Below are positions 1 through 50,147 of a stretch of 64,000 bases of DNA, one piece after another. Below the pieces are notes generated by a model. It did no database searches. It worked only from the letters and a program-made list of their open reading frames with translations, and had not been told where the DNA came from. This DNA comes from Antedon mediterranea (Eukaryota; Echinodermata; Crinoidea; Comatulida; Antedonidae). The position numbers and the translations under genes are program-made. The stretch spans positions 29,660,912 through 29,724,911 of the forward strand of contig NC_092675.1 in the NCBI RefSeq assembly GCF_964355755.1. Direction: 5' to 3'. Numbering within the stretch: the stretch's first letter is position 1; the number at the start of each line of letters is the position of its first letter.

Positions 1-3000
1 CGTCAATTTGCTCACAAACATCTAAGGCAAATATCAAAGTCATCCATCCTGTTGACAACCACGATTTAATTTCTTTCCTTTAAAAAATAATACATTTTCC
101 AAAATAACTAACACTTCTAAAAAGTTTCCCAAACCGATTAACTCAACACTATTTTTAGTTATTTGATTCACTGAAGTTGCATGACCTAACTTCTACAGTT
201 GTCTGTAGTTATTAACCTAAGTCAACACTAGCACAAACTTATGTTGTCAAACTCTGAGTTTGCTCGAGTATGCAAGCTAAATTTTGCTATAGTGTAGTAC
301 ACTCCTAGTTTACACTAACAAACTCGGAGTTTGCTGCTGTTTGCTAGTGTAGTCTTCTGGGTTTCTGCAGTTTGCCCACATTTATCAACTGGTCTCAACA
401 GCAAACTTTGGGAAACTCTTCTTTGGTTTGTTTGAGTTTGCAAACAACAGTTTTTGGTCTAACTTTTGACAACTTCTGCAGTTTGCCGAAGTTTGGAAAA
501 GTTGTGTTGCCAACTATAGGTGTTTGCTAGAGTTGAAACAAGGTTGACAGGTATTAAATGCTTTAAATTATTAATAAATTATTATTATTTAAAAAAAATG
601 TATTGTATACCTGCTTATGCCTGTTTCTTCTTTAAATATCTGCTCAGATATGTTAATTTTGTTCTGACTGAATAAATAGAATTCAACACCTGTGTGATTC
701 CTTGACAAGTTTCTCGCTGTGTTGAAATAATAGTTCTTATCTTCATCTATTTTATCTAAGAATAGCCACGGGATAACAATCATTTTAGGCGGCATAGATC
801 CTCTCTCGATAACCTTAATCTTGTCTATATTTGAATGTCCTACGATTCTGGCAGTAGTTCGGCTACCAACGTCCTTTTCGAAGCCTAGGGTTGGTGCAGC
901 GTTCATCCGGAATACACATTCTGTGCTATCGATAGCAGATCCAGCACTGCTGTTCAGTAACTGACCTGAGTTCGTTACAACTGCGCAATGTCCACAGTTA
1001 AATGACAAGGCCTACAAGAAAGGAAAAAATGTTTTCTTTTTAACAACAATAATTTAAAATAACATATATTCTTTTTTTTTTGTCTTGTGTGAGTTCATCT
1101 CACGTTTATTTAAATTCTCATTGGTGAATATATTATATACAATAAGTACATTTGTGACAATTAAAAGTAAGTTTTCAAAGTAGTTAAAATACAGGTATAT
1201 TTACATAATAAAATGCTTGAATTGAGTATTATTCATGAGTTTGTATGGTGACGTGCATCCTAGGTAGGCATACAATGCATTGTTCAAGTTTCCTTTCGTT
1301 CTTATTACTTACTGCATTATTTCTTAAATTGTAATATTCTGTGTTTAGCTTTTCGATTTGGTCTGGTGTAGAAACGTTGTACGTTGGAGTTGTTGGCCTT
1401 TTATTTGCGTTTACATTTCTGTTTGGTAACGCATTAGTACTTCTTCTTGACGTCTTTTTCTCTAGAATAGCTATTCTCTTGCTGTTGGTTCTATCTTGAT
1501 AGATGTAGCTTAGTACTACGATCGTATTCACTATGAGCAACATTGTAAATAACCTTTTTTCCTGGAAATAGAAGTAGAACATAATATTACATTGTTCATG
1601 TTGAATCGATTGACCGAAAATACTTGACCAACAACCAGCCGACCGACAGACCGACTGGCCGTCTTACTCGATCATCATAGACCTATTAGATCTATTATAT
1701 TGTAGTCTTTATCTATAAATCCATATTCAGTAACATTTTCTACCCATTATCTATTGATAATGTTGATAAGAACATCCGGTAGAGAGACATTATAATCATT
1801 CATTTGAAAATGTTGCAATATCGCGTGATAATGATACTTAATGAGTTACTAATTCAAAATGTAGGAACGTTACTTTTTAATCGTTTTAGGCCTTTTTTCC
1901 TTTTTTGTTGCGTAAATACCACTATTATTCACATTAATATCATGATATAGTCATCTCATCAACATAAAATTATCATGATTACTTTCATTATTATCACATT
2001 TTTTTATTTTCTAATTTTTTTTATCATTACAGTTTTATCAACTTCATCAGTGGTAAGTCTATTATAGCGTTTTTAAATTGTGTACATTAACTTCATACAT
2101 TCCAATAGAGAGGCATTTTAAAAAGCTATGAAAAATAAACGGTGTGGTAAAAAATGTTATCAGATGACTAAATATAGGTAATATAACTTGAATTTTACAT
2201 TTCTGGTATTTTTATTCAACTTCAGAATTTTATTTTCATGCTATAGCAAAAATTATCCACCGTATATCCACCATCTTTTTTCACCTTCTAGGGAGTCACC
2301 AGACATGTTATTACATTATGCTAACTACCTAACTACTGAAAAAAGTCTTTCCTGTGTTTTTGGGCAGAATTTTGCCAAATTTTGTATTTGACCATATTAG
2401 GGGAAATTCATGATTTTTCGTCTTGATTTCTGTTACAAATATTTGATTATGTACAAGTAACCAGATATTATATTTAAAATTCATGCCTGTACCTGAGCTT
2501 TAATGTTCTTGTATTTTTCTATACTACACTTTTAAAAAGCAAATAAAGTTAACACAAAGACGATATGCCTACTGAATCCTAAAGATGGCTTTAGATCAAC
2601 TAGTGTAGTCATTCAATATGAAGTTTATAGGCCTATGAAATAAAACATAAACTTGCATATCTGTACAAGAACAGCGACAACGTTTATAAAATTATTCTTT
2701 CACTTTAAAGTTCGAGGTTACCATAATTACTAACTTAAATATTTGTACCTATTTCACTAATATCGTGAATATGAAATTATGCTCATTTTCTTAGTTACCA
2801 TGACTATATATCAATTTACGATTGGATCTTTTGATGAACGTGAATTTTGTTGAAACTTTAGCTAACAACTTAATATCATTTAAAATAGATTTATTTTTTT
2901 CACTAATAAACTTCAACTTACACAAAATGACAAAAACATAACAAATTCATGTTTATTGTAAATAGAATTACTGAACTTACCGAATAAAATCGTCCAACAA

Positions 3001-12384: not shown

Positions 12385-15300
12385 ATGTCTGAAATTAAGT
12401 ATCAAGATGATATCCTGGAAACGATTGATGCTCTCCGTCGCCGCAAGGCGCGGCCAGGCATTGAGCGAATATACCACATGCTACAACGAAAAAATGGCGT
12501 AACGTTAGAAGAAGTAGAGAGTGCGCTTGAACACCTTGTTGAAGCCGAAATTGTTATAAAGGTTGAATATAAAGGTAGTACAAGCTATCGCAATGCTGCA
12601 AAGTGGCGTAAAAGTCATGTAAGTGGTAATGTTTTGAATTCTACAGACGTAACAAGAACTTTAATTGCTGCTATAAAGTCAATTGGGGAAGAAAAAGAAG
12701 GAGCGACACCAGACGGCGCTTCGTTCCCCGACATTGAAAAGTTCCTAAACGCAAAAAGCCCGCAAAGTAAATTGACCAAACGTCGGCTGACTGATGCTCT
12801 CACAAGGGAAGTGGATATTGGACGAGTTGCTTTACACGATAATAAATACAGATTAGTTGCTAGAAATATTACTGAAGCTGGTTCATTTAGGCCACAGAAA
12901 CCAGCCAAACGCAAGGTAAGCGAATTCATGATATGATGACGATTATGAAGAATTCATTCATTGATTGAGACGGCGATAGATTTTTGTGGTTGACCTTGTG
13001 GTCAAAACCCAAAATGACCTACCTATTTCAATGTCCTGTATAACAAATAAGCTTAATTGTTTTATATACCAAGCGCTACCATACTTTTTTTGTTTTTAAG
13101 AACGGTACGAGACTAAAAAGTTTTTATTACTAATTAGAAATATTGTTAGTTAAATTCTATATTCATTTAGGAATCTTCCAAATAATAATATAGTACTCGT
13201 ATTACAAATTATATGTGTTTGAAACACTTACCCTATTTAAAGATATCTGGTATATTAAACAATTAAATATGTTTAACTTTTAACCAGTTTCTTTCTATTT
13301 TATATTAAAAGCGGATCAAGAAAACTCATGGACCGGATTTTCATCATGAACCAATTGGTCGAATGGGCGACCCTAGATGTGATTACTGCACTCTGACAGC
13401 TAGATGTAATCGCTACGGACTGAAAGAAGATTTGTTGATATGTAAAGATTGTAATGCCAAAGGTATATAGCCATGGTCTCTCCCTCATTTACTCACAATT
13501 CACAATAACACAATATTTAATAGTATACTAAAAGAAGAGAGTGTTTGTCAGTTTGGTAACTATTTAAATGTACGGTACCACAACATTCAACAAGAATTGC
13601 GTACAACTCCGGTGGGGCATTCCCTCTATTTTAATAGTGACGCACAAAAGCGTGATCAACAATCAAAGTGACCCCCACAGGTGAGGTATAAAAGGACAAA
13701 AAACAGGATGAACCCTGTTTGTCCCCCCGGAAGCACTATAGGCATCAATTGGTTATTTTAGAAGGTTTTGTTTAATTCTTGGTTGTTAATACTTTTTTTA
13801 GCTCATTAATTACACAACTGTTTATCAATGTTCATTCCGCCGTTAAGTGTTGTTTTTCCATTGAGTACATTTTGTTAATAAAGTTTTTCAAACGTTAAGT
13901 TGGTACTCAATGAACAAGCTTGCGTTGTTTAACGTTTACCAGTTGGGTAAGAAAAAGATTTTCTGTTTTGCACAAAGGCTTCTAAATCAAATACACTAAA
14001 TCTCTATCTACATTTTGATTTTGTCTATAACTTTGTTCCATCCACACAGTTCACAGCGCATCCAGTTCAATTTGTTTTGTGTGTTTGTTGATAGCAAGGT
14101 TACGTTAAATTGACAGAAATTATTGCTCTGTCTACACTATCAAACTTTATGTGACAAATGTGATGTGCCCATATATGGACATGATGATGTCATATCACTA
14201 CCATATTTGGGTACGTCACTCACAATTTGTTTTTCATACAAGCTTGATAGTGTAGACAGAGCTTTACAAAAACTAAAAAGCCAGGAAACGTAGTAGCGAG
14301 TCAGTGAAGGTGACTCAACCAGTGCGCAATCTGACTAAACTAAATTGTGTATTATAGATTTTAATTTTTAAAACAAATATATTTGTTTGTAGCACTGTAT
14401 ACAGTAAGGGAACAATGTCACAAAATTTATTTAAAACCCTTCAAAACAGGCCCCTCTTTTATCCACCCAAAAAAGCTGTCAAGATTTTAGTAAATAGTAT
14501 ACAAATAATGAATGTTTATGAGTTGGATGGTAAGATTATTTCATGAGTTGAAATATGACTGCTCTATTTTTTATCAAATGAAATAAGGTAATGATGCAAC
14601 TTTGTATGATGTTTAGCCATCAACGGGTCTACACATCATAAAGGCCTGTCTACACTTGAAAAAAACGAGATGTTCATCTGGATTCCTTAATCCACTAACA
14701 ATTAGTTGTTGAGATAGACTATACATTGAAAAAAAAAATGTATAACATTTTTATTTTATTATTTTTCAGCGCATCCGTCATGCATGAATTATTCAACAGA
14801 GTTAGCAGAGCGATCACGACGATCACCATGGCAATGCATTGACTGCAAAACATGTACAATGTGTGATGACGCTGGTAACGCGGTATGTGCTGATTTTGAC
14901 GTATTTGTGATAAATTTGCTTTTTTAGAACCAGAGTCAGTGGGGGTTTTACAGGGCTGTAGCCACTAGTACGGTTGGTAAGGTTTCAACCTGACCACATT
15001 TTCACAGAGGCCTTTGACAATCCAGTTGCTTGAACAGAGATTGTTTCCTTTTCGTGCGAAAACCGGACCACTTTATTTCTTGTGGCTGCATCACTATGAT
15101 ACGTCTAGTTACTACTCAATAGTTAAGAAGGCGGGATGTGGTTTGGAGTTGTTCTAGATCTAGGGGATGGGGAAGGGAGATGAGACGAAACCTTGGAATG
15201 TTGTTGGGTGGGACGACTATCTGGATCTTAAAGCACTGCACACACTACCTACCTAACTATACAACGTAGTGAGTTTTAGTAGTACCTTTTAACAGACGTA

Positions 15301-23316: not shown

Positions 23317-26300
23317 TTAAAGATAAAAACAGAGCATTAATAGACTGAGTAACAAAAATAGGAGGAGAAATGCTACCATACTAAGAAAAATAGCCATAAT
23401 CAGCATCATAGCGGATGAAAACTGTGAATATTTACTACCGGTTTTCTTATACTTAACCACGTGTTTACGTAGCACCAAAGGTAGCGGTCCTTTCTTAACG
23501 TCTTTATTTGTATTGTTCAATAACTGCATCAGTGTTTCGTTCAATTTTGCCGCACGGTACATCTTAATAAATGGAGTTTCTAAAGGTTTTGTGATGTCGA
23601 CACCGGTGAGGTTCCACGACGGATAATGAAATTTAATGTTGTGTTTAACTGCCCATCTTGCGAAGACTGCTTTTTCTGTGACAAATAGATGTCCGTATCG
23701 AAGCTGTTCTTCTGAAGTCTTGTAATAATCACACTCGTGAAGTCCGTCAGATTCGTAGTAGTGGTATGGCGTTGTGTCGTTTATGCGACCACTGAAATAT
23801 AAAAATAACAAGATCATTCTTTATTACATCAAACATTACTTCCATTCTGCCATTCGCTGATCATCAAAAATTGGTCCTTTTTTATTTTTTAAAGATATTT
23901 TCCATCCAGAATTTATAATATTTCCATGTATTTAATAATAGGCAGCTGTGTATTAGACCTGCAGTATAAAGTCTTCAATGCACCCTAAATCATATCTTAA
24001 GGAAACCTATCACGTAGCTGGATCCAATGAGGCCCAGTCGGCCAGGCCCCAACTCAATTTTACCATTTACAATTCATCCACTATATTTTTTACACCCCGT
24101 CACCACTAGACTTTTCTAGCTACACCCCCTCACTGATCATTGCACATATTCAGCAATATTTCCAATTATACTCTTTTGAATATTTGACCTTGTTGAATAA
24201 AATATATCAATGTACAAATAAATCATATCTATCTATATCATGTTTACTATAGCAAAGGCAGGTCAGGGAATAATTTCGCCAGTGTAGCATAGCAAAAAGC
24301 TATACAAAACAACCTTATTGCTACACATTTCTAAAATTGTGTAGCAAAAAAGACAATACAAAACTATGTTTCTCGACTAAAAAATCAGTTTGATTAGCAA
24401 TAATTGCTAAACAAAATTTTCAAATGAAATTTTTCCCTGCAGGTTAATGAGTCAGATACAGAGATACATTAATTCAAGATTTGAATATTAAGGAAAATTA
24501 CATGTGACAACGGCGACGATACATTTATTTTATCTCTTTTAGTTTCTACGCTATAAATAGCTACACAGGTGTAAATAATGTGAATGTTGACACCTGGCTA
24601 CAAAGGTTAATATTATTCATAAATAATGCATTTTGTAGAAGTGTTTGAACATACAAATTGTTACAGTTATATCATTATTTTAACGTATCCTTTGCCTGAC
24701 ACATGATGGGAAGGAAATGGAGGGGGGAACAGCATTGGGGATAACCTTAAGGGAGAAAACTTTATAGCCGAGTAATAATCTAAAATAACTTAGATTCTAC
24801 CTCCTCTACATACTTCTGTGCAACCACCTTTTACTACACCTACTGCAGCTGGTGATGATGTACACCTTCTATAACGCCTTAGGTGATTGGACTTCATTTA
24901 TATAATGGACAAAAACAATAATTGTTCACACTTTGTTTCTCATTCTGCATTCAAATTATTTATTTAAAGATGTATTGTCCCCCAAAAAAACATGAGAAAT
25001 GAAGATTACTAAAACCAGAATTGGAATATGACATTTTGCAGTTTTAATAGTTATTCACTTTTGTAGAAAAAAAAACCTATAACTGCAGAGCGAGTTAGGT
25101 TCAATATTATTACTAGGCATATTAACAAATGTACTTACTCGCAATAGTTTTCTGGAACGAGTCCGAAAACATTAATGTTATCACAAATGTCCAAAGCAAG
25201 GAGCATGGTCATCCAACCAGTCGACAGCCAGGTACGAGCTTCTCGTCTTAATAAATACAATTATCAGGTAAAAACAGTTAAAAATAGAAACAATTTATCA
25301 CATGATAACCAAATATGGTAGTGATATGCTTAAATATGGTAGTGATATGACATCATGTCGATATATGGGCACATCACATTTTGTCACATAAAGTTTGATA
25401 GTGTAGACAGAGCTATATGGTTATTTTACAACCTTAGTGACAGTGGATTAAACTCATAAAAACATTAAAAATGGCAGTTTTTTAAATATAGCTTGTTCAC
25501 AATTCATAAACATTTAGCATTCTTCAGTAAAAATGATTATTTTAAACTTATATTTTAACATTTTTCGAACTTTTTCATCAGTTGAACAGCGATTTTGTAT
25601 TTTAAGTTTATTTTAATATTTGCGATTTGCATAAATGATAAAGAGCATTGAGATTTTTAATGTAATGTGCTACAGAAAGAATAAATAAATAAACGTTACA
25701 TCATCTATAATCCGGTTTATTATGTCATTAACATTTAAATGAGATGGATTTTGTAGTCAATATTGTCAAATGTACATGTTATAAATGTTAACAGTGTAGA
25801 ATTCAGCATTTTAAATCCAGGCGGATGAGGAATATGCATGCAAATGAAATCCAGTTGAAACGATTCTTAGATTACAAAGTTTTATTACGACGATCTATCA
25901 CAAACCTCAAGTACAGGTACAGAGTTTCTTATAGTGAACAGAAGGTAGTGAAATAACCATAGAATAATTCTGCTAAGACTGCTAAATGTATAAATATTGT
26001 AGTTGATGATAGTTGTTGGTCGACTCTATCTACCATATTAGCTTAGTATTTTGTGCATTATACTAATCTAGCCAGAGTTCAATTCAAGTTCCAGCAGACA
26101 GCAGACATTCAATATTTGACAGCACAGAGATTTGTCAGTTGCTAGATGATGTATTAAGATCAAATGTTTGATGTCACGATATCAATCTTGTTATTTTAAT
26201 TTTCTGTTTTTTTTTGTGTGGAAACTCATGTTGTTCATTACATTCTTTGTGTGAAATCATGTTTATTACATTCTTTGTGTGAAATCATGTTTATTACATT

Positions 26301-29300
26301 CTTTGTGTGAAATCATATTTATTACATTCTCTGTGTGAAATCATGTTTATTACATTCTTTGTGTGAAATCATGTTTATTACATTCTCTGTGTGAAATCAT
26401 GTTTATTACATTCTTTGTGTGAAATCATGTTTATTACATTCTTTGTGTGAAATCATGTTTATTACATTCTCTGTGTGAAATCAAGTTGTTAAAATGTTTA
26501 CATTGCACAAATTGTCCGGAATTGTTTTCTAAATTGGGAGAATACTGCCATGTAAAAATGTCAACAATATTTTTAAAAATATCATCATCATCATCTTGCC
26601 AAACTGTGCAGAACTTTGTTTGAGGTTAGTCACACATGGGTTGGTCACATTTATGCAGATGGGCTTCCTAATTTCTTCAATATTGTAATTTTTTTCTAAT
26701 TTTATAACTATGCCACATCATACAGTACAGTAGACGCATTTCTTGAATCTCTTTAGTGATGGTGATCTTAGTTCCGGCTTAGAAACCATATACAATATGA
26801 TAGATTGAATGAAATGATACATATTATTCAGTTTCTGTGAAAGCTAGTTCCCTGTGAGGTATGGTCATCGTTAAACTATTCAGAAATAAACAGAACCATT
26901 GTCAAATAACCGACTCACGGAAATTTTCTAAATAAGGTGTTATCGGATTTTCCAACAGCCTGATAATTTTTTTATTATCATAGGTTGTGTGTTTATAATA
27001 CAGTAATATAAAGTTATGGCAAGATTAAAGTGCCAAATTTTAAATAAATATGTGGGTATAGAAGATGATTAGATTATGGCTTCATTGAATGGAAATTATA
27101 TATTTGTTCATACTTTATGAAAATTGAGCAATGATGCAATGGTAAAAGAAATTGGTGTAACTATCGTATGAAGACTATTAGATCTCTTAATGTATGCTAC
27201 AGAAATGCTCTGCGCCGTATACTTAATGTCTCTAGAAGTAGTAGTGCCAGTGCAATGTTTATTGAACATGGTGTCCCCCTTCCTTTAATGAGTACATGCG
27301 AAAATCTACCTATGGTTTCATGCAACATATGTTGAATAGTGGTAACATCCTTGTTGCTTGTGTTTGCAAACATATGCTCAATAACTCCAAAATGTATTGT
27401 AGATGGAGAAGCATTCTATACATATACTTAAGTTTAGAGTTTAAAATTTTTCTTTTTCTGTTTAATATTAATATGGATGATATTTCCGAAATAAAAAGAA
27501 ATTGAATTGAATAGGCACAAGATTAACAGTTGTGCTTTTTCCAAGAAAATGATTTAAATGTTGTGTTTTGGCTTAAATGTTAAGCTGTTGGTTTGTGGCA
27601 ATAATTTCTATGAATGCAGCTTGATAAACTATAGAAAACAGTATACGTGATTCTTTTCTTGTGATTGAGTGCAATGTCTTTTGGTTTTATGATGCAACAT
27701 ATGGCAAGCAGCTATTGAGTCTAACAGTCTGTCATGTTTCTGAGCGTGCACAGATTGACTGTAAAGACTCAAAAGCTGTATAGTCGAGAGGTTGTTTGTA
27801 AAATATTCAAGATCGCTAAAAAGGGTAATGTGTGATAACTTGGGTGTACTTGCCCCGCACCACCAATGTCTCAGAGCTCTTACTGTGCTTACCTTGATAT
27901 TCCGATCTCTGACCTAAATATCTGCTCAGCATTTCTCATCTTACTGCCAGATAACAGATAGAACTCTGTATCATGGAATGTTTTGGAGAAATTTTTAACG
28001 ACTTTGTAAAATTTATCAGTTTTTTTATTCACTCTAACATTGTACAACCATGGGATAATGTTCCTCTTTGCACTTGTCGTCTCATCTACAAACAACTCAT
28101 CCTGCAGACTGGTACTCTCATTGATCTTCAGAAGATTAACATGACCTATGACCCGGACAGTTGTTTTTGAACCAACATCATCTTCAAAGCCTTTAGTCGG
28201 TGAAGTGTTCATGCGAATGACGCATGGAAACTGATCAATTTCTTTGCCAGCACTTTGATTAAGTAGTCGACCTGAACTAGATATTACGGCACACCATTTA
28301 CAGTGCACGTGAAGATTCTGTAAAACAAAAGGAAATAAGTAAAAACTTTCCCAAAAATTTCGGACAGAAAAAAATGTTAAGGATATTTTTGATTTGCTTT
28401 CCATCTGTCGACATTACCATATTTTTTGTGAATGGACAGAATTCTTTGACCTCTCTGCAACCTCAATGTGCGACAATGTACTGTAAGCAAGGCTGAAGGT
28501 GTCCTGGCACAAATGGCGTATCATCCCAACGATAGAGGGCAAAGAGTTCGTCATTATAGTTATAATATACAATTATTAATTTATTGTATATTTACAATTG
28601 TAGTTAAGTTTAATTCAATTCAACGTTAACATTTATTTTCTTTCTTTCAATCAATAACAAAATGAATAAGGAATTAAAAAAGAAAGTACGAGTTTTATAT
28701 AATACATTTCATGAATATAATATATAAACACAACAGGCAAAGAACATTAATTCTAAGCCGCCCGGTGATATACTGAAATTTTAATTAATTAATTTGAAAC
28801 GATAAAGTTGGTGACTTGGTGTGGTGAAATAAAGTAAATCAAATATAAATTGTCTTTACCTTGCTAGTTGCTACCTTAAAGTATCCATCAGCTCGTTTAT
28901 TTGCTGCTTTTGGCGACAATTTCATCAATGCAATCTCCTTCTTTATCATCTCACGTGAAATGTTTCTCTGGCGTTCATTTTCAATTTCTTCTTTTGTTTT
29001 TTCCAACAATTTACGCTTCAATGTCAAATTAGCTACTTTTACAGATTTTATTTTGTTTTTAGTCAAATTTGATTGTTTTACTGAAGCATTCTTTTTTTTG
29101 TATGTTGAATATTTGTTCATTTTCTTTCCTTTGTGTCTTTCAACTTCCGGTATTCTGTATATACCTTTATTTATATTCTTCTTTTTTTCTATTTTGGATA
29201 TTTTCTTTTCTCCTTCAATAGATTTCCCAGAGTCTTTGATAAACAAATGTGATTGGTTAACCGACTGAATTGTCTTTGTGATGTTTTTTCTCCTCTTAAA

Positions 29301-32300
29301 CTTTGTTGCATTCTTTGGTTGTAATAAATTAAATGGCAAAAAAGAATCCTTATCTCTTTTATTAGTAGATAAATTAGTTTCTTTAGATTTTACCTTTTTC
29401 AAAATTATATTGCTAGATTTCTTAAGTAAATAAAGTGGTTTTTCTGTACTTTTTGTTTTATTTAAATGTTGCTGTATCTTATCATATTCTTCTTTCTTCA
29501 ATGCATCCCAGTCAATAGTCTGATCTATTTCATACCAATTAATGCCAACATTCCCGGGCATATTCCGGATGTCCATCATGTTCAAACTGTCAGTAGATAT
29601 TGTTGCAGGACCGCTACCTAATATGGGAAAATATTTGCCATTTGCTGACACATTTTTGGAAATATCTCCTCCAAGATTTTGAGTTTGCCGTTGACTAATA
29701 GAGTTTGCGTTCCGAGAAGGAAATGCACGCCGTGTCAGCTGTACGGAGTTGGAAACTCGTAACAATACATTCTTATCTTTGGTTTGAATGTGTGAATAAT
29801 AAATTCCTACAATTGAGATCACTAGGGAGTACCAAAGTACCGCTAACAACACACGACGTTGACTCTGAAAATAAAAATAAGAACGTGTTCGTTAATGAGC
29901 CCATTGGAATTTAAAAGGATTACTCCTTATAAAAGCAAATGTCACCGGAAATGGGAACGAAAGAAGACAAGTTACTGGAAATGATAGGACGAGACATCAG
30001 AGAGATTCTCAGTGCTTTTTCCACTATGCAACATACTGTACATTTAATCCTAAGGGAAATGTATACTCACAGTATTATCATGACAGCATTATCCAATTAC
30101 TTAGTATAGAAATTCAATTTTAAAAATGGATCACATATTAATTTAATAATATTAATAATATTATAGAATTAAATAGAGCATAACATACTAAGAGCCTGAA
30201 TGTGAAAGATTCACATGAGATTATACTATTGCACTAATTAATGGTCGTCTGATGGATGAACCATAGAGATACTGTACAGTAGTTCTCTTTATATCTATAA
30301 TGAATGAATTCATATTATAAAGCCATTATATACGGTAATTAATATCCACTTTGATTGTGCTGGAGGAGGCAGCCATTTCAAGGTCATCTGACCCAAGAAA
30401 AACTACTGAATATCTCAAAGTACTACATGTAAACATCCATCCTCCCTAGACATTCTTAATAGATACACCGACTGTATTGTATTACCTGATTGCTTTTTAA
30501 TTATTTTTTTTTATAAAAATACCAACATATATTTTAGAAAACAAAACTGAGATGTCAACGTTTACATAACTACATCTTGCATTTTATTTTATTGCAAAAT
30601 ACAACAATGAAATAACAGTATAAAAAAAATGGGTATTTTTTATTGTTAAAGATTATATACTGAAGGTAAACTTTGAACTGTACAACACAATACATTGCTT
30701 GTTATTGTACAAAAGTAATATTCTTCCATTAATGTATAAGGAATAATACTAATAATATAAAGAAGAAATGCATTTCAATGAAATTAAAAATAACCTACTG
30801 TAAGAATACAAAATGAAACAGCTTATTATAAGACTTACAGTATTAATGCAACCATAATCCTTACCCCAAATTTTCAAACAAATTTCAACCCATGCACCCT
30901 GGGACTAAGGTCACAGTATAATTTTTATTTAGGTCGCAAAAATTGTTTCCATCAATGCACAACATTTTTATGTATTTTATTAATGTAATTGCAAAAACAT
31001 TTTAAAACGTTCTAATGAGTTTTAAAAATGTAAAGATTTGCAATAATAACACTTTGAATGCAAGATTAATAAATATATATAAAGACCAAAAACAATATTC
31101 CCAAAGGTCTTAATACTCCAGTCTAATGATCTTACAATATGATTAATGCATACTGTACACTACTTGCATTAACAATAATAACATAGAGCAATGCAGCAAG
31201 TGCGTCTGTTAAGTACTCTTCCAGACATGTGTTATGGAATACAGAAATGTATAACTGTAGTACATATATATATAACTTACTATTGTACACCATGTGACCC
31301 ACAATCATCCAATCAAATGACAGGAATTTATTTAGGTGTTATTATAACAAGTAATAATATATTGCACACAGTATTTTCTAACATAAATTATTTGCAGTTC
31401 AGCAGCAGTGGGAAATCATTGTTATTATGCTTGGTTCTCACTAGAGACGCAACACAAGGATGTAACGCAGCGCAAGTGATTCGACCGTTGCTTGTCATTG
31501 GCCACTCGCTTGCTTTGCATCTACTGTACGTCCTTGTTGTATTGCATCTCTAGTGAGAACCACGCTTTACGATAATAATATTTATTATGTATAAATAACA
31601 CTTTTAACACAACTATTCACAATTTACTCCCACTTCCAAAATAGATACACTTAATCACAGAACGGCGTAACTGGGAGTTTTAATGAATCGCAACCAAATG
31701 ATTTCAAATTGGAATATTAATTGGAATATTCCACTGGGAACGGTAAACTTTGATTATACAGTGTACTTATAATGTAAGATTGATTATGTATTCAATGGCA
31801 AGGAATAGAGAGAGTATAGAGTTAATAACAAACTCTCTTTAGCTTCATGGAAAATTCATCCACATTCTTGGCGCTATAATCAGAAAATCAGAGGCTCTGA
31901 GAAGGGAAAGTTTTTAATTCGTTATCGTCAAATGATAAACACTATCTTCAATAAAGACATTGATTTTATTATTAATTGATGGTACTGTAGTGTCATCTTT
32001 TTAATTAATCATGCGTGACATTAATTTATCATCGCAGTAATTTATTGAAACTAAGAACCATTTTGAGGGCTAATAAATTTAAATATTTGTCAGCGATTCA
32101 AACTTTTTTTTATAGTAAAATACACACTTAAAATTGATACATCTTGCTATGCTCTCCATCCAAATGACAAATAAATCATATCTTTAAAAAATGTATGATT
32201 GACATATTGGCAACAGGATTATCAAAAAGTGACAATGTTAAATATTAGACTAGTACTGTAGTATGTAATTTTTCAAAATAATTATGTATTCTCTATAATT

Positions 32301-41733: not shown

Positions 41734-41945
41734 TTATGCAAAATCATTTAACAGTCTAATAGAATACGGAACAAAAGAATTAAAATATCGCATAACCCTA
41801 CTATTGCACGATCTCAGCACATTTAGTCTTTTTGATCTCATTTTAACATAATGTTTATTTAAAGGGTGGTTTGAGTCGTCGCATATTTTCATAGCCTTAT
41901 TTCTAATAAGCATTCCATACGATCTTCCAGATAAAATTATCAGCG
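41734..41945 (-). mobile_element. LINE fragment, minus orientation
   Basis: The minus-strand frame reads RSYGMLIRNKAMKICDDSNH and then RSCNSRVMRYFNSFVPYSIR with LLND, the usual C-terminal signature of CR1/L2-like polyproteins. It abuts a plus-oriented LINE fragment head to head near 41945. Confidence 0.65.
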
Positions 41946-41949
41946 CAGA

Positions 41950-42800
41950 CTTTAACATGTTTGCAGATGATGCAAAGATTATAAAGACCATCAAAGAAAA
42001 ATCGGATTCAAGAAAACTTCAAATTGATCTTGATAGGGCTCAGGAATGGTCAGAGGACTGGCTGCTAAAATTCAATACCAAGAAATGCAAAGTGCTCCAT
42101 GTTGGTAGAAAGACAGAGAAATCAGAATATTGTCTAAATGGAGAAACGTTATTGGCAGTAAACGAAGAAAAAGACCTTGGTGTTATCTTCACTAGCGACT
42201 GCAAGCCAAGCCGACAGTGTGCTGCAGCAGCAGCTAGAGCGACGAATAGTATGAGAACTGTCAAAAGAACATTCAAAAATATTGACAAAGAAAGTTTTCA
42301 GGTCATGTACAAGGCATACATCCGTCCACATATGGAATACTGTATACAGTCCTGGTCTCCTTACTATAACAAAGACAAAGAAATCTTGGAGAAGGTGCAG
42401 AGAAGAGCTACAAAGATGGTCAAGTCAATAAGTGATCTACCATATGAAAAAAGGTTAGAATATCTTGATCTTCAACCATTAGAGACGAGAAGACTACGAG
42501 GAGATTTGATTGAAGCTTTCAAAATTTTGAAAGGCTTTGAGGATATTGACCCAAAAGATTTATTTAAATTGTCTCACAACATCAGAACCAGGGGACACAG
42601 CTTAAAACTATATCGTCCAAAACTTAGAGGAAATCTTATGTGCAGGGCCAACTTTTTTACCATCAGAGTCATACATCACTGGAATTCTCTGCCTGAATAT
42701 GTAATACAAGCCTCTTCAGTGAACATCTTTAAGTCTAGACTTGACAACTATTTTCGGCTAGAAATGGAATCTAATAGGCACTAGCCTAAACTATTTCCAT
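41950..42800 (+). mobile_element. LINE fragment, C-terminal half of a reverse transcriptase
   Basis: An open frame of about 275 codons starts at the reverse transcriptase catalytic box (MFADDAKI). It continues through WLLKFNTKKCKVLHVG, MVKSISDLPYEKRLEYL and HHWNSLPEYV, as in non-LTR retrotransposons of the CR1/Rex1/Jockey group. The polymerase N-terminus and the endonuclease are missing, so it is a 5'-truncated copy. It is unusually intact for a dead fragment. Confidence 0.88.
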
Positions 42801-43443: not shown

Positions 43444-46400
43444 ATGAATTATTCATATATACCAATTGCAATATTAGCTGTACTAGCTATATTTGTTCAC
43501 GAGATAAATGGATCATCTAATTTAGGCAGAGGTAAGATCACAGGTGATGCATTCAAAAGCGCAGGCTGCAGCGCCGTCAGCCCCTCCTACCCCCTTTCTC
43601 ATCCATCATGAAATGATGTGCAGCACCAACCATGACAGCAGGCCAACTAACTGATAGGCTAGCCCGCGGACTCTAGGCCTACCACTACAGTACCTGCCGT
43701 CCTAAACTAGACCTAAACTAGCTATCTCGGTCGGTGTAGGCCCACCTAGCTAGCCAGATAATTATTTTCATCTCGTAATCCGTATGATGATAATTGATTA
43801 AATTGATACAATCCACTTTTCAGGAGATAACAAACATGTTCAAGAAGAACACCCTTTTTCATTGTTTTTGGCTCATTGCCTTCAATTGTGTATAGAATAT
43901 TTCCAGGCATGTTGTATGTCCACAATATACCATTTTAAGTCTAAGGTCTATGAGAGTATAATTATTAAACAACAATGTGATTACTCAAATTGTTTATTTT
44001 AAATATTTGCATGGCGAAATCAAATGTTGATTGATATAGTTTGCGGTACACCATATGTATATTTAGTCCTGAAAAGTACTTTTAAGTTTTCCTTTCTGAA
44101 TTTTACATTAATATAATTTGTGTATTTAGCTTTGTCTTGGTGCATACAATGTTTTCCAAGAATTATCAACTAAAACTATATTTTCAGGTTTTGGTGATAA
44201 CATAGATTGGAAAACAATGGATGAGGGATTGCAATTGGCAAAAGAAAGGTACAATACAGTTTTGAACTCATGATTCTTAAATGATACTGTATTTGTAAGC
44301 AAAATGAAGGGGGAAAGGAGTGGTGAGGTGTAGTGGGTGAGGAGTGGTGAGGTGTAGTGGGTGAGGTGTAGTGGGTGAGGAGTGGTGAGGTGTAGTGGGT
44401 GAGGAGTGGTGAGGTGTAGTGGGTGAGGAGTGGTGAGGTGTAGTGGGTGAGGAGTGGTGAGGTGTAGTGGGTGAGGAGTGGTGAGGTGTAGTGGGTGAGG
44501 AGTGGTGAGGTGTAGTGGGTGAGGAGTGGTGAGGTGTAGTGGGTGAGGAGTGGTGAGGTGTAGTGGGTGAGGAGTGGTGAGGTGTAGTGGGTGAGGAGTG
44601 GTGAGGTGTAGTGGGTGAGGAGTGGTGAGGTGTAGTGGGTGAGGAGTGGTGAGGTGTAGTGGGTGTTTTGCATTGCAATGATACATTCTAAAGCCTTGTC
44701 TACACTATCAAACTTTACTGTGACAAAAAAATGTGATGTGCCCATATATGGACATGATGATGTCACATCACTACCATATTTGAGTACATCACACTTTTTG
44801 TTGTTGTAGAAAGAGCTTATAAGCCTTTAAACAATGTTTGTATCAGAATTTGTTAGCTTATCATCATAAAGCTATAAAGTCTGGGATATATAGGTCCACC
44901 AACCATCTAAATTTGTAAGAGCTCTTTGAAAAATTAAATGTTTATTTTCTTTAATAGTGATACACCAATGATGTTACTTATTCATAAGACTTGGTGTGGA
45001 GCATGTAAAGGTAAGACTCTTGCGTTTTCATTGACTAATTATAAAAAATAAAATGAACAAAATATCTAGTAGGTTGAAGGATATACACAAGTTATAATTA
45101 TTACAAGCTATTCAAATTGTAGATGTTTTCCCTGTGTTTATTTTATGTCAGCTTGTTTTGTCTATTTCATGCCTAGCTTATTACCCCGCCTCCCCCCCCC
45201 CCAACTTTTTTTTTAAAACTCTTCTACACTAGAAGCAGAGTACACTTTATAGTGATGTCATCACTTTTCTACAATCCGCCAGACTGTTGTCTACGTCTTT
45301 TATTTGTTTTCACAATGGGCCCGTTTCTGCTGCCAACCCAAAATATACCGTATAAATATACCGTATAAATATACCGTATATATACCGTATATGAAATTCG
45401 TGCACCGTTTCCGCTGCACATACTTCGTGGGTGGGTTGTAAAAAGTTGGCTTTCATTACCCAAAATGCATTTCGTGAGACGGAAGTATGGATTGACCTCG
45501 TGTAGTGAGGTTTTTACCTATATCGGTACATGCTGACAAAAACAAAACAATGATGGTTTCTCAAAACGTCGTAGCATTGCTTTCTATTTTAAATCTAATG
45601 AGCAGAAGTGGCAACGAATTTACACCGCACATACAAGCACAATCTAGAAATGTCACTATTTATAAATAAACTCTGTTAATTATTCAAATTGAGTTTATAT
45701 TATGCTATATTATCCTATATTGCCGTTTTAATTTCCATTTTCTATTATACAGTATTTTACCATGATTTTACATCACGTTGTTGTCGTGTAAGAACATTCG
45801 ATTTATTGTAATTAAAATCTCGGTATCTCTTCTGTTGCCATGCAGTCTCCCCCCAACCTTCGCTTCCCCCACAATTGAATTGCAAAAATAGTGATTTGTT
45901 CGGTCCACAGTGACATTTTGATCTGTTGCTTGCTTTTACACGTGTGTTTCAACTTTCAATGCAGCAGAAAAACCAAAACAAACGCGTCGCGCTCTGTTAG
46001 TTTTTGACCTCGTGTCATGAGTCGGGTCACATTTACGGTATATTTTGAGTGCAGCAGAAACGGGGAACGAAATATACGGTATATTTTGGAATATACCGTA
46101 TAATATCCACAAACGATGGGGATATTTATGCAGTATATATACCGCAAATATATACGGTATATTTTTTATGAGACCCATTTCTGCTGCCAAAAAATATACC
46201 GTATATAAAATATACCGTATATATACGGTATATTTTTGGCAGCAGAAACGGGGCCAATGTATATTTTGTATCATCTACATCTGGAAAATAATTGAATTTA
46301 AGCGTGAAATATATCAAATTACCTAAATGTTGCATTTTCAGCATTAAAACCAAAATTTGCAGCTTCATCAGATATTCAACAACTCAGTGAAAATTTTGTT

Positions 46401-49400
46401 ATGGTTAATGTTGAGGTAAGTTACAAGTTGTTTTGTGTTTTTTAGTTTTTTTTTAAAGTTTGCTCTTTAGATTTATCCACTCCATAGGGACTTTGATTGT
46501 CAAAGTTGACCCTTTAACCTCAATTAAAGGTAAAAGCCCGCTACTGGTACCACCTTTCAATGTCATTCCATCTTCATTAAAGTGCTTTATATTGCTTTGT
46601 TTTAGGATGATGAGGAACCAAAAGATTCCAAATACACCCCTGACGGAGGATACATTCCAAGAATTCTATTTTTAGAACCAAATGGTAACGTTAGAGACGA
46701 TATTGTTAACACTGTTGGCAACGAACGATATAAATATTATTATCCAAGTGCAGATCACGGTAAGATAATTTAGTATGATCCATTTTATTAAGCTCCGTCT
46801 ACACTATCAAACTAGTTTGACAAAAAGGTATGATTTGTCCAAATATGGTAGTGATATGACATCATCATGTCCATATATGGGCACATCACATTTTTTTGTC
46901 CCATAAAGTTTAATAGTGTAGACAGAGCTTTACTAATATGATATATAATACACATTTTGAATAAAGTGAGACATGCCGATTTTATTGGGTTTTTCAAATA
47001 GCATAGAGTGAAAAAAGAAATTTAATAGTTTATTATTATTATTACTTCAATATCATTTTTAGTCATAATATTCAGTAATAGTACAGTAGAACCTCTATTA
47101 AAAGGGACACTCAAAAAGTGTCGCCTCAAGTGTCCCTCAGGCACTTCACCTCGGGACTAAAATAAAAATAATAATGTGACCTCACCTCAATGTTAAAATA
47201 TTTACTTCCTTTGTTTCATGGGAAAGTGTCCCCTTAAAGAGGCATGTCCCTATAGAGGCATGTCTCCTTTAGAGGCGTGTCCCCCTAAGAGGCGTGTCCC
47301 CTTAGAGGCATGTCCCCTTAAGAGGCGTGTCCCCTTAAGAGGCATGTTGTGTAGAAAGGTTCTACTCTACTTTAGTAAAGTTAAAATGAAGTAATTTTTA
47401 AAAGAAGATTAAAAAAAATTAAATTTGCTTATTGTATATATAGAAATATTTTTTAATTTGGTGTAAGTCTATTCATTCTTTAGAGTTTTTAAAAAACATA
47501 TTTGAACACTAGGCAACCTCATCTTAACAACTTTAATGAGAGGATTTTGTATTTAGTGACTTGTGGATTTCAATTTCATCCATATAATACTTACACAAAA
47601 CAGTGTTCAGTTACAACCAGGATGTTACGCTTGAGTAAGCTTTCAACAATCAATGAGTGCATGTTTCCCATTGATGAATTTAAGCTACCCAGGTGTTACC
47701 GACACATCAATAAACTTGTTCCTGATTGGCTGAAAGCTGTCAAAGGTATTAAAGCCTTTGACTGAGTGCCACCTCATCACTTTGAACAGTTTGTTTGTAA
47801 AGCATTGATTTTAACTTTAGTGCAAATTGTGTTTTAATTTGCCATTAAATGACATCTGGTTAAAAATCTATTCAGAATATTCGGCTTCAAATACTGCATA
47901 GCAAATAATGCATCATAACATTATAATTGCATAACCAGAAGAAATTATTAATAAAATATTTAGTCATAATAAATATTTAGAGCAGCCTGACTTAGATTAG
48001 GTAGATGTGTTCACTGAACAGCCATTTTTTTGTGTTATATTCCAATATTTTAGTTGGGAATATTTTATGTCAATCCAATGAATGCTCAGTATAATGAACT
48101 AAGGGTGTTGAATGAACTCAGTCTAATGTATCATCTGTTATATCAATGCTTAATGGACCATAGCCAAATGTTCACTATAAAAGCTTAAATGCAGTTGTTT
48201 AAATCAGTTGGGGATATAGCTCAGTGGTAGAGCATTCGACTGCAGATCGAGAGGTCCCTGGTTCAAGTCCGGGTGTCCCCTACTGATTTTTTTTTTAAAC
48301 TTAAAAAATTGTGACTGTTGGCAATTTTCCCTGTTTTCTACTATTTATATCTAAATAATATAGATGCTCTACTTTCTTTAAAAATATGATATTAAAATTG
48401 TGTATCCCATACTTGTATTGTTATTGTACATACAGCACTAAACTAAGACAATTCCAAACATTAAGTTAAATAATGATAAAATAGTTTATGAAAAAAAGGC
48501 TAAAATTGGTAAAATGGCAAAAATAAAGCATTCTTCGACCAAAATGTTTCTTTTTCTAGTATTATGAATATTATAATTATATGAAAATGGTTTATTATAA
48601 TTATGGAATTTTTTTTTCAAATTTCGTTTTTGGTTTTTATGCAATTTATTATATTTATTATATTATGCAATGATATGACTCTACGAGCATTTATATAGTG
48701 ATTGTATAATTTATTAATAAATAATGTTACTTTGAATGTTTAATGTTATGCCTGCCAGGCATCCAGACCTAGAATACAAATAGCATATTATTATGTGACA
48801 AGTATTTGCTTGCAATTACATTGTTCGAAATGAATAGCCAGTATTTGGCAAACAATGTTATTAAGCAATGATTTTCTAAAGTATGTTAAAATATTTGAAT
48901 TTTTTAAATTTTTGGTGAACCATAAAAAATAGACTAACTATTTTTGCTACATTTCGGCTACTACCATCACGAGTGACGTGTTTATTTTGATTGTTTGTCA
49001 TCAATCAAAAAATACAAACAACTTATTCGATACAATATTATTTTTTTTCGAGAACATGTTAATATAGAAATTAATTGATTTAGTGTTGTTTGTTTGTTTG
49101 TTGTTTGTTTTCCTATTTAATTATAAATACTTAAACAAACAAATTCTTATATAAATATATTTTGAATATATATTGGACTCATTTAACCAATATAATCAAG
49201 TAACAGATGGGGATATAGCTCAGTGGTAAACATACAGATATTATAGTGATATAATATCTCTATGGTGGTAGAGCATTCGTCTGCAGAGGGAGCGAAAGAG
49301 AGGTGCCCGGCCTGGTTCAAATCGTGGTCGCCTCTCTGAATGTTTCCCTCTGCAAGTATTCGCAAATGAAATTAATGTCCAACATCTGACCTTTTAGATT

Positions 49401-50147
49401 AGCTCTGTTTGTGCTGACCATGTAAGGGTTTATTGTAAACTAAAACAAGTGATATGACAAGTATCAGAGTATCAAAGGGGATATAGCTCAGTGGTAGAGC
49501 ATTCGACTGCAGATCGAGAGGTCCCTGGTTCAAATCCGGGTGTCCCCTCCAATTTTTTTTTTTATTCTTTCTTTTGCTGAGAAATAAATATTTTGACAGG
49601 TTTTTTTAAAATTTTAATATTAACAGATTTTCTATAAAGCAGAACTTTGCAAATGGATACATGTCCATTGTTTGTGTTGCTAACCACATATGGTTGCTAT
49701 TGTTATTTAAAACTAAAATAAGTGATATGGCCTTATTTAACCGTTTATTAGTATCAAAGGGGATATAGCTCAGTGGTAGAGCATTCGACTGCAGATCGAG
49801 AGGTCCCTGGTTCAAATCCGGGTGTCCCCTCCAATTTTTTAAAGACTTTATTATTTATAGAATATCAGTATTGTATTTCAGTGTATTTTTATATGACTGT
49901 TTGGATGTATTTCTAGGGTTTCAAAATATTCTTATGGTAACAATTTAAATTGTTATAATTTTCGTTTTTACTTGCCGCAAGTGTTTTTAACTTCATTGAA
50001 TTTAATCATGGATATTTTTGTATTTTTGTCACAATGCACTTATTATTTTTAAGCACTGATAAACATTACTAATTTTGTTTGTTTTTTTTAGTTGTGCTGG
50101 CAATGAGGAATGCCCTGAAGAAAATCAAGTCCAATGATGAACTTTAA
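43444..50147 (+). CDS. TXNDC12: TXNDC12 (ERp18/ERp19/AGR1), ER thioredoxin-fold protein
   Basis: Exons are 43444-43531, 44188-44248, 44958-45010, 46342-46415, 46606-46759 and 50092-50147, totalling 486 nt (161 residues; human 172). An N-terminal signal peptide ([20 protein letters not shown]) precedes a single thioredoxin domain with active site WCGAC (residues 62-66), the same CGAC motif as in vertebrate TXNDC12. [13 protein letters not shown] holds the cis-proline region. The C-terminus NDEL is a KDEL-type ER retrieval signal. The role is thiol-disulfide exchange on folding secretory proteins in the ER lumen. All splice phases agree. Intron 2 carries a 24 bp minisatellite, intron 3 a 0.94 kb transposon and intron 5 (3.3 kb) the tRNA-Cys genes. 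Confidence 0.95.
44316..44664. repeat. Minisatellite, 24 bp unit, about 14 copies
   Basis: The unit starts AGTGGTGAGGTGTAGTGGGT and ends GAGG. It is nearly perfect, with one shortened unit near 44350. It is G-rich on the plus strand and lies in TXNDC12 intron 2. Because 24 is a multiple of three, it yields long spurious minus-strand frames (TTPHPLHL repeats). Confidence 0.97.
44690..44818. repeat. MITE family A copy, right end decayed
   Basis: AAGCCTTGTCTACACTATCA is clear. The right side ends TTGTTGTAGAAAGAGCTT. One CCATATATGG is intact. It follows the 24 bp minisatellite by about 25 bp. Confidence 0.8.
45316..46255. mobile_element. Non-autonomous DNA transposon with GGGCCCGTTTCTGCTGCCAA termini
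   Basis: The right end TTGGCAGCAGAAACGGGGCC is the inverted form of the left. AAT flanks both ends, consistent with a 3 bp target duplication. GGGCCC-type ends with a 3 bp duplication fit PIF/Harbinger elements (inference). Subterminal regions are packed with ATACCGTATA repeats. No transposase is present. It lies in TXNDC12 intron 3. Confidence 0.7.
46790..46931. repeat. MITE family A copy just after the TXNDC12 exon 5 donor
   Basis: AGCTCCGTCTACACTATCAA pairs with TTTAATAGTGTAGACAGAGC. CCAAATATGG and CCATATATGG are both intact. It begins about 30 bp after the splice donor. Confidence 0.9.
47081..47373. repeat. Inverted-repeat element K (CAGTAGAACCTCTATTA) with an internal tandem array
   Basis: ACAGTAGAACCTCTATTA at the left pairs with AGAAAGGTTCTACTCTAC at the right. 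Inside, about 47226-47345, are about seven units of a 17-19 bp repeat of the type AGAGGCATGTCCCCTTA. It lies in TXNDC12 intron 5. Confidence 0.65.
47502..47765 (+). other. Orphan open frame in TXNDC12 intron 5
   Basis: The open frame runs about 85 codons to TGA at 47763-47765, with a Cys-containing, well-mixed composition and a C-terminal [20 protein letters not shown]. The plausible upstream acceptor (ATTCATTCTTTAG, near 47483) is followed by an in-frame stop, so it is not an obvious TXNDC12 exon. The tail faintly recalls the end of glutathione S-transferase C-terminal domains. A retrocopy fragment or chance frame is possible. Confidence 0.25.
48210..48281 (+). tRNA. tRNA-Cys-GCA: tRNA-Cys (GCA)
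   Basis: 72 nt with a complete cloverleaf. The acceptor stem pairs GGGGATA with TGTCCCC apart from minor mismatches. The D arm is GCTCAGTGGTAGAGC (A box), the anticodon loop is CTGCAGA (anticodon GCA), and the T arm contains GGTTCAAGTCC (B box). A T-run terminator follows within 10 bp. There is no intron. It lies in sense orientation inside TXNDC12 intron 5. Confidence 0.97.
49209..49337 (+). pseudogene. tRNA-Cys pseudogene split by a hairpin insertion
   Basis: It starts exactly like the intact genes (GGGGATATAGCTCAGTGGTA). A 36 bp insert (49229-49264), flanked by the 6 bp repeat GTGGTA, then interrupts the D loop. The copy resumes with GAGCATTCGTCTGCAGA but has an extra purine-rich insert before GCCTGGTTCAAATCG. 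The insert contains a perfect 10 bp stem, AGATATTATA and TATAATATCT, around GTGA. No T-run terminator follows. Confidence 0.9.
49477..49548 (+). tRNA. tRNA-Cys-GCA: tRNA-Cys (GCA)
   Basis: 72 nt, identical to the 48210 gene except for one base in the T arm (TTCAAATCC). Anticodon loop CTGCAGA. A long T run (CCAATTTTTTTTT) provides the pol III terminator. Confidence 0.97.
49759..49830 (+). tRNA. tRNA-Cys-GCA: tRNA-Cys (GCA)
   Basis: 72 nt, identical to the 49477 gene. The 5' flank (AGTATCAAA) and 3' flank (CCAATTTTTT) also match that copy, as does an upstream segment of the type AAAACTAAAATAAGTGATATG. The last two genes therefore came from a recent segmental duplication. Confidence 0.97.

Follow-up and report, generated by a model that had tools for sequence, protein, structure and literature searches.

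The crinoid Antedon mediterranea carries, on the minus strand of the 64,000-nucleotide stretch analyzed here (the window), a GT29 sialyltransferase gene with a continuous reading frame and a hydrophobic segment at each end of its product, and this two-segment layout recurs in a clade of its paralogues. We favor, at somewhat better than even confidence, the view that the enzyme is a two-anchor variant of the family, in which the type II anchor is joined by a C-terminal transmembrane helix, so that both ends would be fixed and the catalytic domain would form a loop at the lumenal leaflet. The wider proposal, on which we are evenly balanced, is of a crinoid clade of doubly anchored sialyltransferases having N- and C-terminal helices with both ends in the cytosol, the active site being kept at the membrane for lipid-linked acceptors and L015, one of the paralogues, possibly bearing a regulated tail.

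Gene structure and family assignment

The exons of the gene span window positions 29864 to 23317 (Table 1) and, when joined, encode 665 or 670 residues in one continuous frame, depending on which of two candidate donors closes the first. Because no ATG precedes the anchor in the exon at 29864-28860, our model must lack a short coding exon upstream of it; this start-codon exon was not located and the total length of the protein is therefore uncertain, with the 680 residues given by the first-pass annotation being approximate. Its coordinates for the last exon (23791-23317) and its placing of motifs III and VS there agree with our reading: the minus-strand frame 23820-23317 is open, the exon starts with GRINDTTPYHYYE after an acceptor at 23791 (ttatatttcag, phase 2), and the stop is a TAA at 23319-23317.

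Table 1. Coordinates of the sialyltransferase gene and its parts within the window.
Feature	Position	Strand	Basis
Exon with anchor and long Lys-rich stem	28860..29864	-	Continuous frame, acceptor ttttattttcag; donor 28860 or 28875
N-terminal transmembrane anchor VLLAVLWYSLVISIVGIYY	29796..29852	-	Biological-scale sum -0.4
Sialylmotif L exon	27893..28317	-	ORF vs. Pfam Glyco_transf_29, E=5e-22; splice sites identified
Sialylmotif S exon (STGWMTMLLALDICDNINVFGLV)	25139..25246	-	97-100% self match
Last exon (exon 4): motif III, motif VS, tail, stop	23317..23791	-	Open frame and acceptor
Motif III (YHYYE)	23752-23766	-	Read directly in last exon
Motif VS (HLFVTE; context HLFVTEKAVF)	23674-23691	-	Read directly in last exon
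83-residue tail after Thr-Pro-Phe	23320..23568	-	First ~28 residues align with L010
C-terminal 31-residue hydrophobic segment	23320..23412	-	Codon-position T bias, shuffle test, hydrophobicity, AlphaFold helix

The joined exons match PF00777 (Glyco_transf_29) with E=1e-34 and a score of 120.6 against a cut-off of 23 bits. Sialylmotifs L, S, III and VS, by which the GT29 family is recognized, are all present, as is the type II N-terminal anchor VLLAVLWYSLVISIVGIYY in the exon at 29864-28860, and CMP-sialic acid transferase activity is predicted from the intact motifs. Judged from sequence, the gene departs from the single-transmembrane-domain layout typical of human GT29 enzymes, and the second segment appears to be a variant feature, not a defining trait of the family as the motifs are. 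The sialylmotif S exon shares 43-75% identity with the corresponding exon in 15 paralogues. The enzyme is probably of the ST6GalNAc III-VI type (ST6GALNAC3/5-like), a subfamily call which we presume from the motif pattern, and with which the ranking of solved structures is consistent. Among structures in the PDB, the closest are ST6GAL1 and ST8SIA3, with ST6GAL1 best and far ahead of ST6GALNAC2; this order fits the published division of ST6Gal and ST6GalNAc III-VI from the remaining families (PMC10225777).

The window holds several other features. A second sialyltransferase gene (L019) lies in tandem on the minus strand, with a motif L exon and an anchor exon inside the window (589-1011 and 1229-1663) and its last exon, coding for a very basic tail, just beyond it. 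A tandem repeat with a unit of ~28 bases occupies ~26240-26500, in the intron before the exon 3 region of the sialyltransferase gene, and an array of short TTACACTCACC-like tandem repeats, open in several frames, is found at 44126-44826. On the plus strand there are a SAMD1-type winged-helix domain (PF21524, E=3.5e-27; 12385-12936), which probably opens a chromatin gene as its exon 1, with further exons to ~17200; a 310-residue open frame (41852-42784) with a weak RVT_1 (reverse transcriptase) match below cut-off, likely a retroelement piece; and three clustered tRNA-Cys (GCA) genes (48210-48281, 49477-49548 and 49759-49830). Elsewhere in the genome, the A. mediterranea neuropeptide GLFPTGGMDPLGASYFT (PMC9793003) is present letter for letter; the neuropeptide precursor at C3:159128-159250 (L045) reads GLFPTGGMDPLGASYFT-GKR followed by ~16 tandem copies of the related AFPGSGGMDTLGNGYFT-GKR, and the A. 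mediterranea precursor was reported as holding a single peptide.

The C-terminal tail and its hydrophobic segment

Exactly 83 residues follow the conserved Thr-Pro-Phe, in agreement with the count of about 83 made earlier from Pro-Phe, and the last 31 of these, AMMLIMAIFLSMVAFLLLFLLLSLLMLCFYL, are hydrophobic with zero charged residues up to the TAA, again as had been described. Over its first ~28 residues the tail can be aligned with that of the closest paralogue, L010 (z 7.0), and hence the frame is coding at least through this part. Within the 93 bases of the segment itself, the fraction of T at codon positions 1/2/3 is 0.29/0.77/0.45, neither alternative frame is both open and hydrophobic, and only 1 of 4,000 dinucleotide-preserving shuffles (0.025%) was open and at least equally hydrophobic; the segment is thus more than a T-rich accident. 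Since its leucines use many different codons, it is not a simple repeat either. By the biological-scale sum over the best 19 residues, the segment (-6.0) is more hydrophobic than the N-terminal anchor of the same protein (-0.4). AlphaFold, given the last exon alone as a single sequence, predicted a continuous helix (126-156) over the segment with a block pLDDT of ~98, and nothing reliable outside that helix. A Pfam match of the tail to SRTM1 (E=0.033, below the cut-off) was treated as chance.

Paralogues and the history of the segment

The genome searched comprises 18 contigs totalling 354 Mb, and matches came from C1 to C11. The Pfam GT29 profile gave 150 exon-level matches, located on C1, C3, C5, C6, C7, C9 and C11, which probably represent several dozen genes, many of them in tandem arrays. 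With the last exon as query, 18 further last exons were found, making at least 19 in all; 16 genes including the focal one were modelled or pieced together, 13 of these as clean splice models with identical intron phases and three (L019, L020 and L022) by joining tblastn pieces. Tails after TPF in this family range from 8 to 108 residues, are mostly basic and evolve fast. The hydrophobic C-terminal segment is not unique to the focal gene, recurring in at least four paralogues, with best 19-residue sums of 0.8 in L011 and 1.7 in L012, both borderline, -0.25 in L015 and -3.9 in L017; every other scored paralogue has a sum of +11 or higher. Anchor exons equivalent to the focal one were found in L010, L011, L012, L014, L015 and L017, and, as all four segment-bearing paralogues keep theirs, the C-terminal segment is not a substitute for the usual anchor. 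It runs to the very end of the protein in the focal gene and L017, and in L011, L012 and L015 polar residues follow it. The clearest putative transmembrane case among the paralogues is L015 (C6:683118-683372), where the segment CAVILSLMPVLALYVFSFAIWIAI is followed by ~35 residues (FYEDDSSSSDSDED) that are polar, acidic and rich in Ser and may form a regulatory tail in the cytosol. As a control, we inspected the last-exon stretches of other GT29 hits: the segment was absent from 55 of 55, most of which end 26-35 residues past the VS-motif His, with the VS motif mis-assigned in a few (e.g. L082, L099 and L100).

The history of the segment was examined on a tree built from the catalytic part alone. 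In exon structure, N-terminal anchor and C-terminal segment the focal gene resembles L011, L012, L015 and L017, but these four form one clade (91/94) and the focal gene lies outside it, pairing with L010 (85/83), which has no segment and ends in an unrelated basic tail; no in-frame relic of a segment was detected in the ~130 bases after the L010 stop. A single clade of all five segment-bearing genes was not rejected (p-AU 0.32). The tree requires two changes of segment state, counted with L016 left out in view of possible different splicing beyond its TPF. The segment accordingly either arose early and was lost in L010 or was acquired on two occasions; with its nearest relative devoid of it, the focal segment may be a separate gain. 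Tails of L011 and L012 are recognizably similar across the segment (z 4.7). We did not count the similarity between the focal and L017 tails (z 4.1) towards homology: both tails are hydrophobic, and stretches of this kind are disrupted by shuffling.

Membrane arrangement, alternatives and known systems

The first-pass annotation had proposed that the enzyme may be tethered at both ends, or else carry a GPI-type signal. For the former, the two hydrophobic segments are present and the layout is repeated in four paralogues; membrane insertion of the C-terminal segment, and with it the topology, are what we infer. Inserted by its N-terminal anchor in type II orientation, the enzyme would have its stem and catalytic domain in the Golgi lumen; the chain would then re-enter the membrane through the C-terminal helix, placing the C-terminus in the cytosol and keeping the catalytic domain looped against the lumenal leaflet. 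In support of two anchors are the continuous frame with all sialylmotifs, the T bias and shuffle result for the segment, the hydrophobicity of the C-terminal segment, exceeding that of the N-terminal anchor, its repetition in L011, L012, L015 and L017, and its absence from the 55 control stretches. Against this, basic residues precede the segment and would be lumenal, contrary to the positive-inside rule, which is a real objection to the proposed topology; in addition, the segment is absent from L010, the nearest relative, the sums for L011 and L012 are borderline, and a helix of 31 residues is long for the Golgi membrane, where a span of ~20 residues is usual.

In the GPI alternative, the segment would be an attachment signal cut off in the ER, leaving the enzyme attached through the N-terminal helix at one end and a GPI lipid at the other. 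GPI signals combine a small omega site, a polar spacer and a moderately hydrophobic end. A hydrophobic stretch does run to the last residue in the focal gene and L017, and the former has one rule-legal omega site, Ser-Ser-Ala; that site, however, is separated from the hydrophobic core by zero spacer, and the core, at -6.0, is far more hydrophobic than five human GPI signals, at +1.2 to +7.3. Given the missing spacer and the very hydrophobic core, a transmembrane helix is likelier than a GPI signal in the focal gene. The polar residues after the segment in L011, L012 and L015 likewise argue against such a signal, and the ~35 polar, acidic residues that end L015 mean that its segment is not one. 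In L017, with Ser-Gly-Ala and a short spacer, GPI attachment may be more possible than in the focal gene. For the focal enzyme we consider it unlikely.

Similarly improbable, in our estimation, is a recent and non-adaptive origin of the tail, in which loss of a stop codon or displacement of the exon end led to the reading of T-rich sequence and thereby to a hydrophobic end with no selected role. The unrelated basic tail of L010, the variable length and fast evolution of tails in the family and the two state changes on the tree would suit such an origin, but the codon-position T bias and the shuffle test speak against it, as do the recurrence of the two-segment layout within a clade and the finding that frames downstream of paralogue stops usually close quickly. 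We give still less credence to splicing inside the last exon to a further 3' exon, by which the hydrophobic tail would not be made or would be isoform-specific. Weak GT sites exist at 23439 and 23377, and no AATAAA occurs within 1 kb past the stop, where the only signal is an AGTAAA at ~+254. The first-pass annotation had named splicing away from the tail as what would count against its reading; a scan of exon 4 revealed no donor matching at least 6 of 9 consensus positions, whereas the flanking introns have good donors, and the segment has a coding-like codon pattern while paralogues likewise end in the corresponding exon.

Many Golgi glycosyltransferases are released through cleavage of the stem. 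With anchors at both ends, the enzyme would not be set free by cutting of the stem alone; the most likely benefits would be resistance to shedding and an active site kept near membrane-bound acceptors such as glycolipids, and L015 would add an acidic, Ser-rich cytosolic tail that could be open to regulation. Glycolipids are acceptors of vertebrate ST6GalNAc III, V and VI (PMC10225777), and inositolphosphoceramide-type gangliosides have been reported from feather stars, according to titles cited in PMC4393008.

The published description of GT29 enzymes, human members included, is of type II proteins that have one transmembrane domain only (PMC10225777), and no GT29 enzyme with a C-terminal membrane segment was recognized in the part of the literature that our search covered. 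If the two-anchor arrangement is true, a clade fixed at both ends, in a crinoid whose set of GT29 genes is very large (150 exon-level matches), would offer a natural way of testing if the choice of substrate is governed by shedding and by how far the enzyme lies from the membrane. To our knowledge, the sialyltransferases described so far all have the same topology, in which the C-terminus is free in the lumen. The ST6GalNAc III-VI group is like the focal enzyme in having sialylmotifs L, S, III and VS, an N-terminal type II anchor, a stem and a catalytic domain; the focal enzyme differs from the human members in its 83-residue C-terminal extension and second hydrophobic segment. BST-2/tetherin is a type II protein that is attached to the membrane a second time through its C-terminus, in that case by a GPI lipid; this protein is unrelated and the comparison is one of working principle, with the C-terminal attachment of the focal enzyme being more likely a helix.
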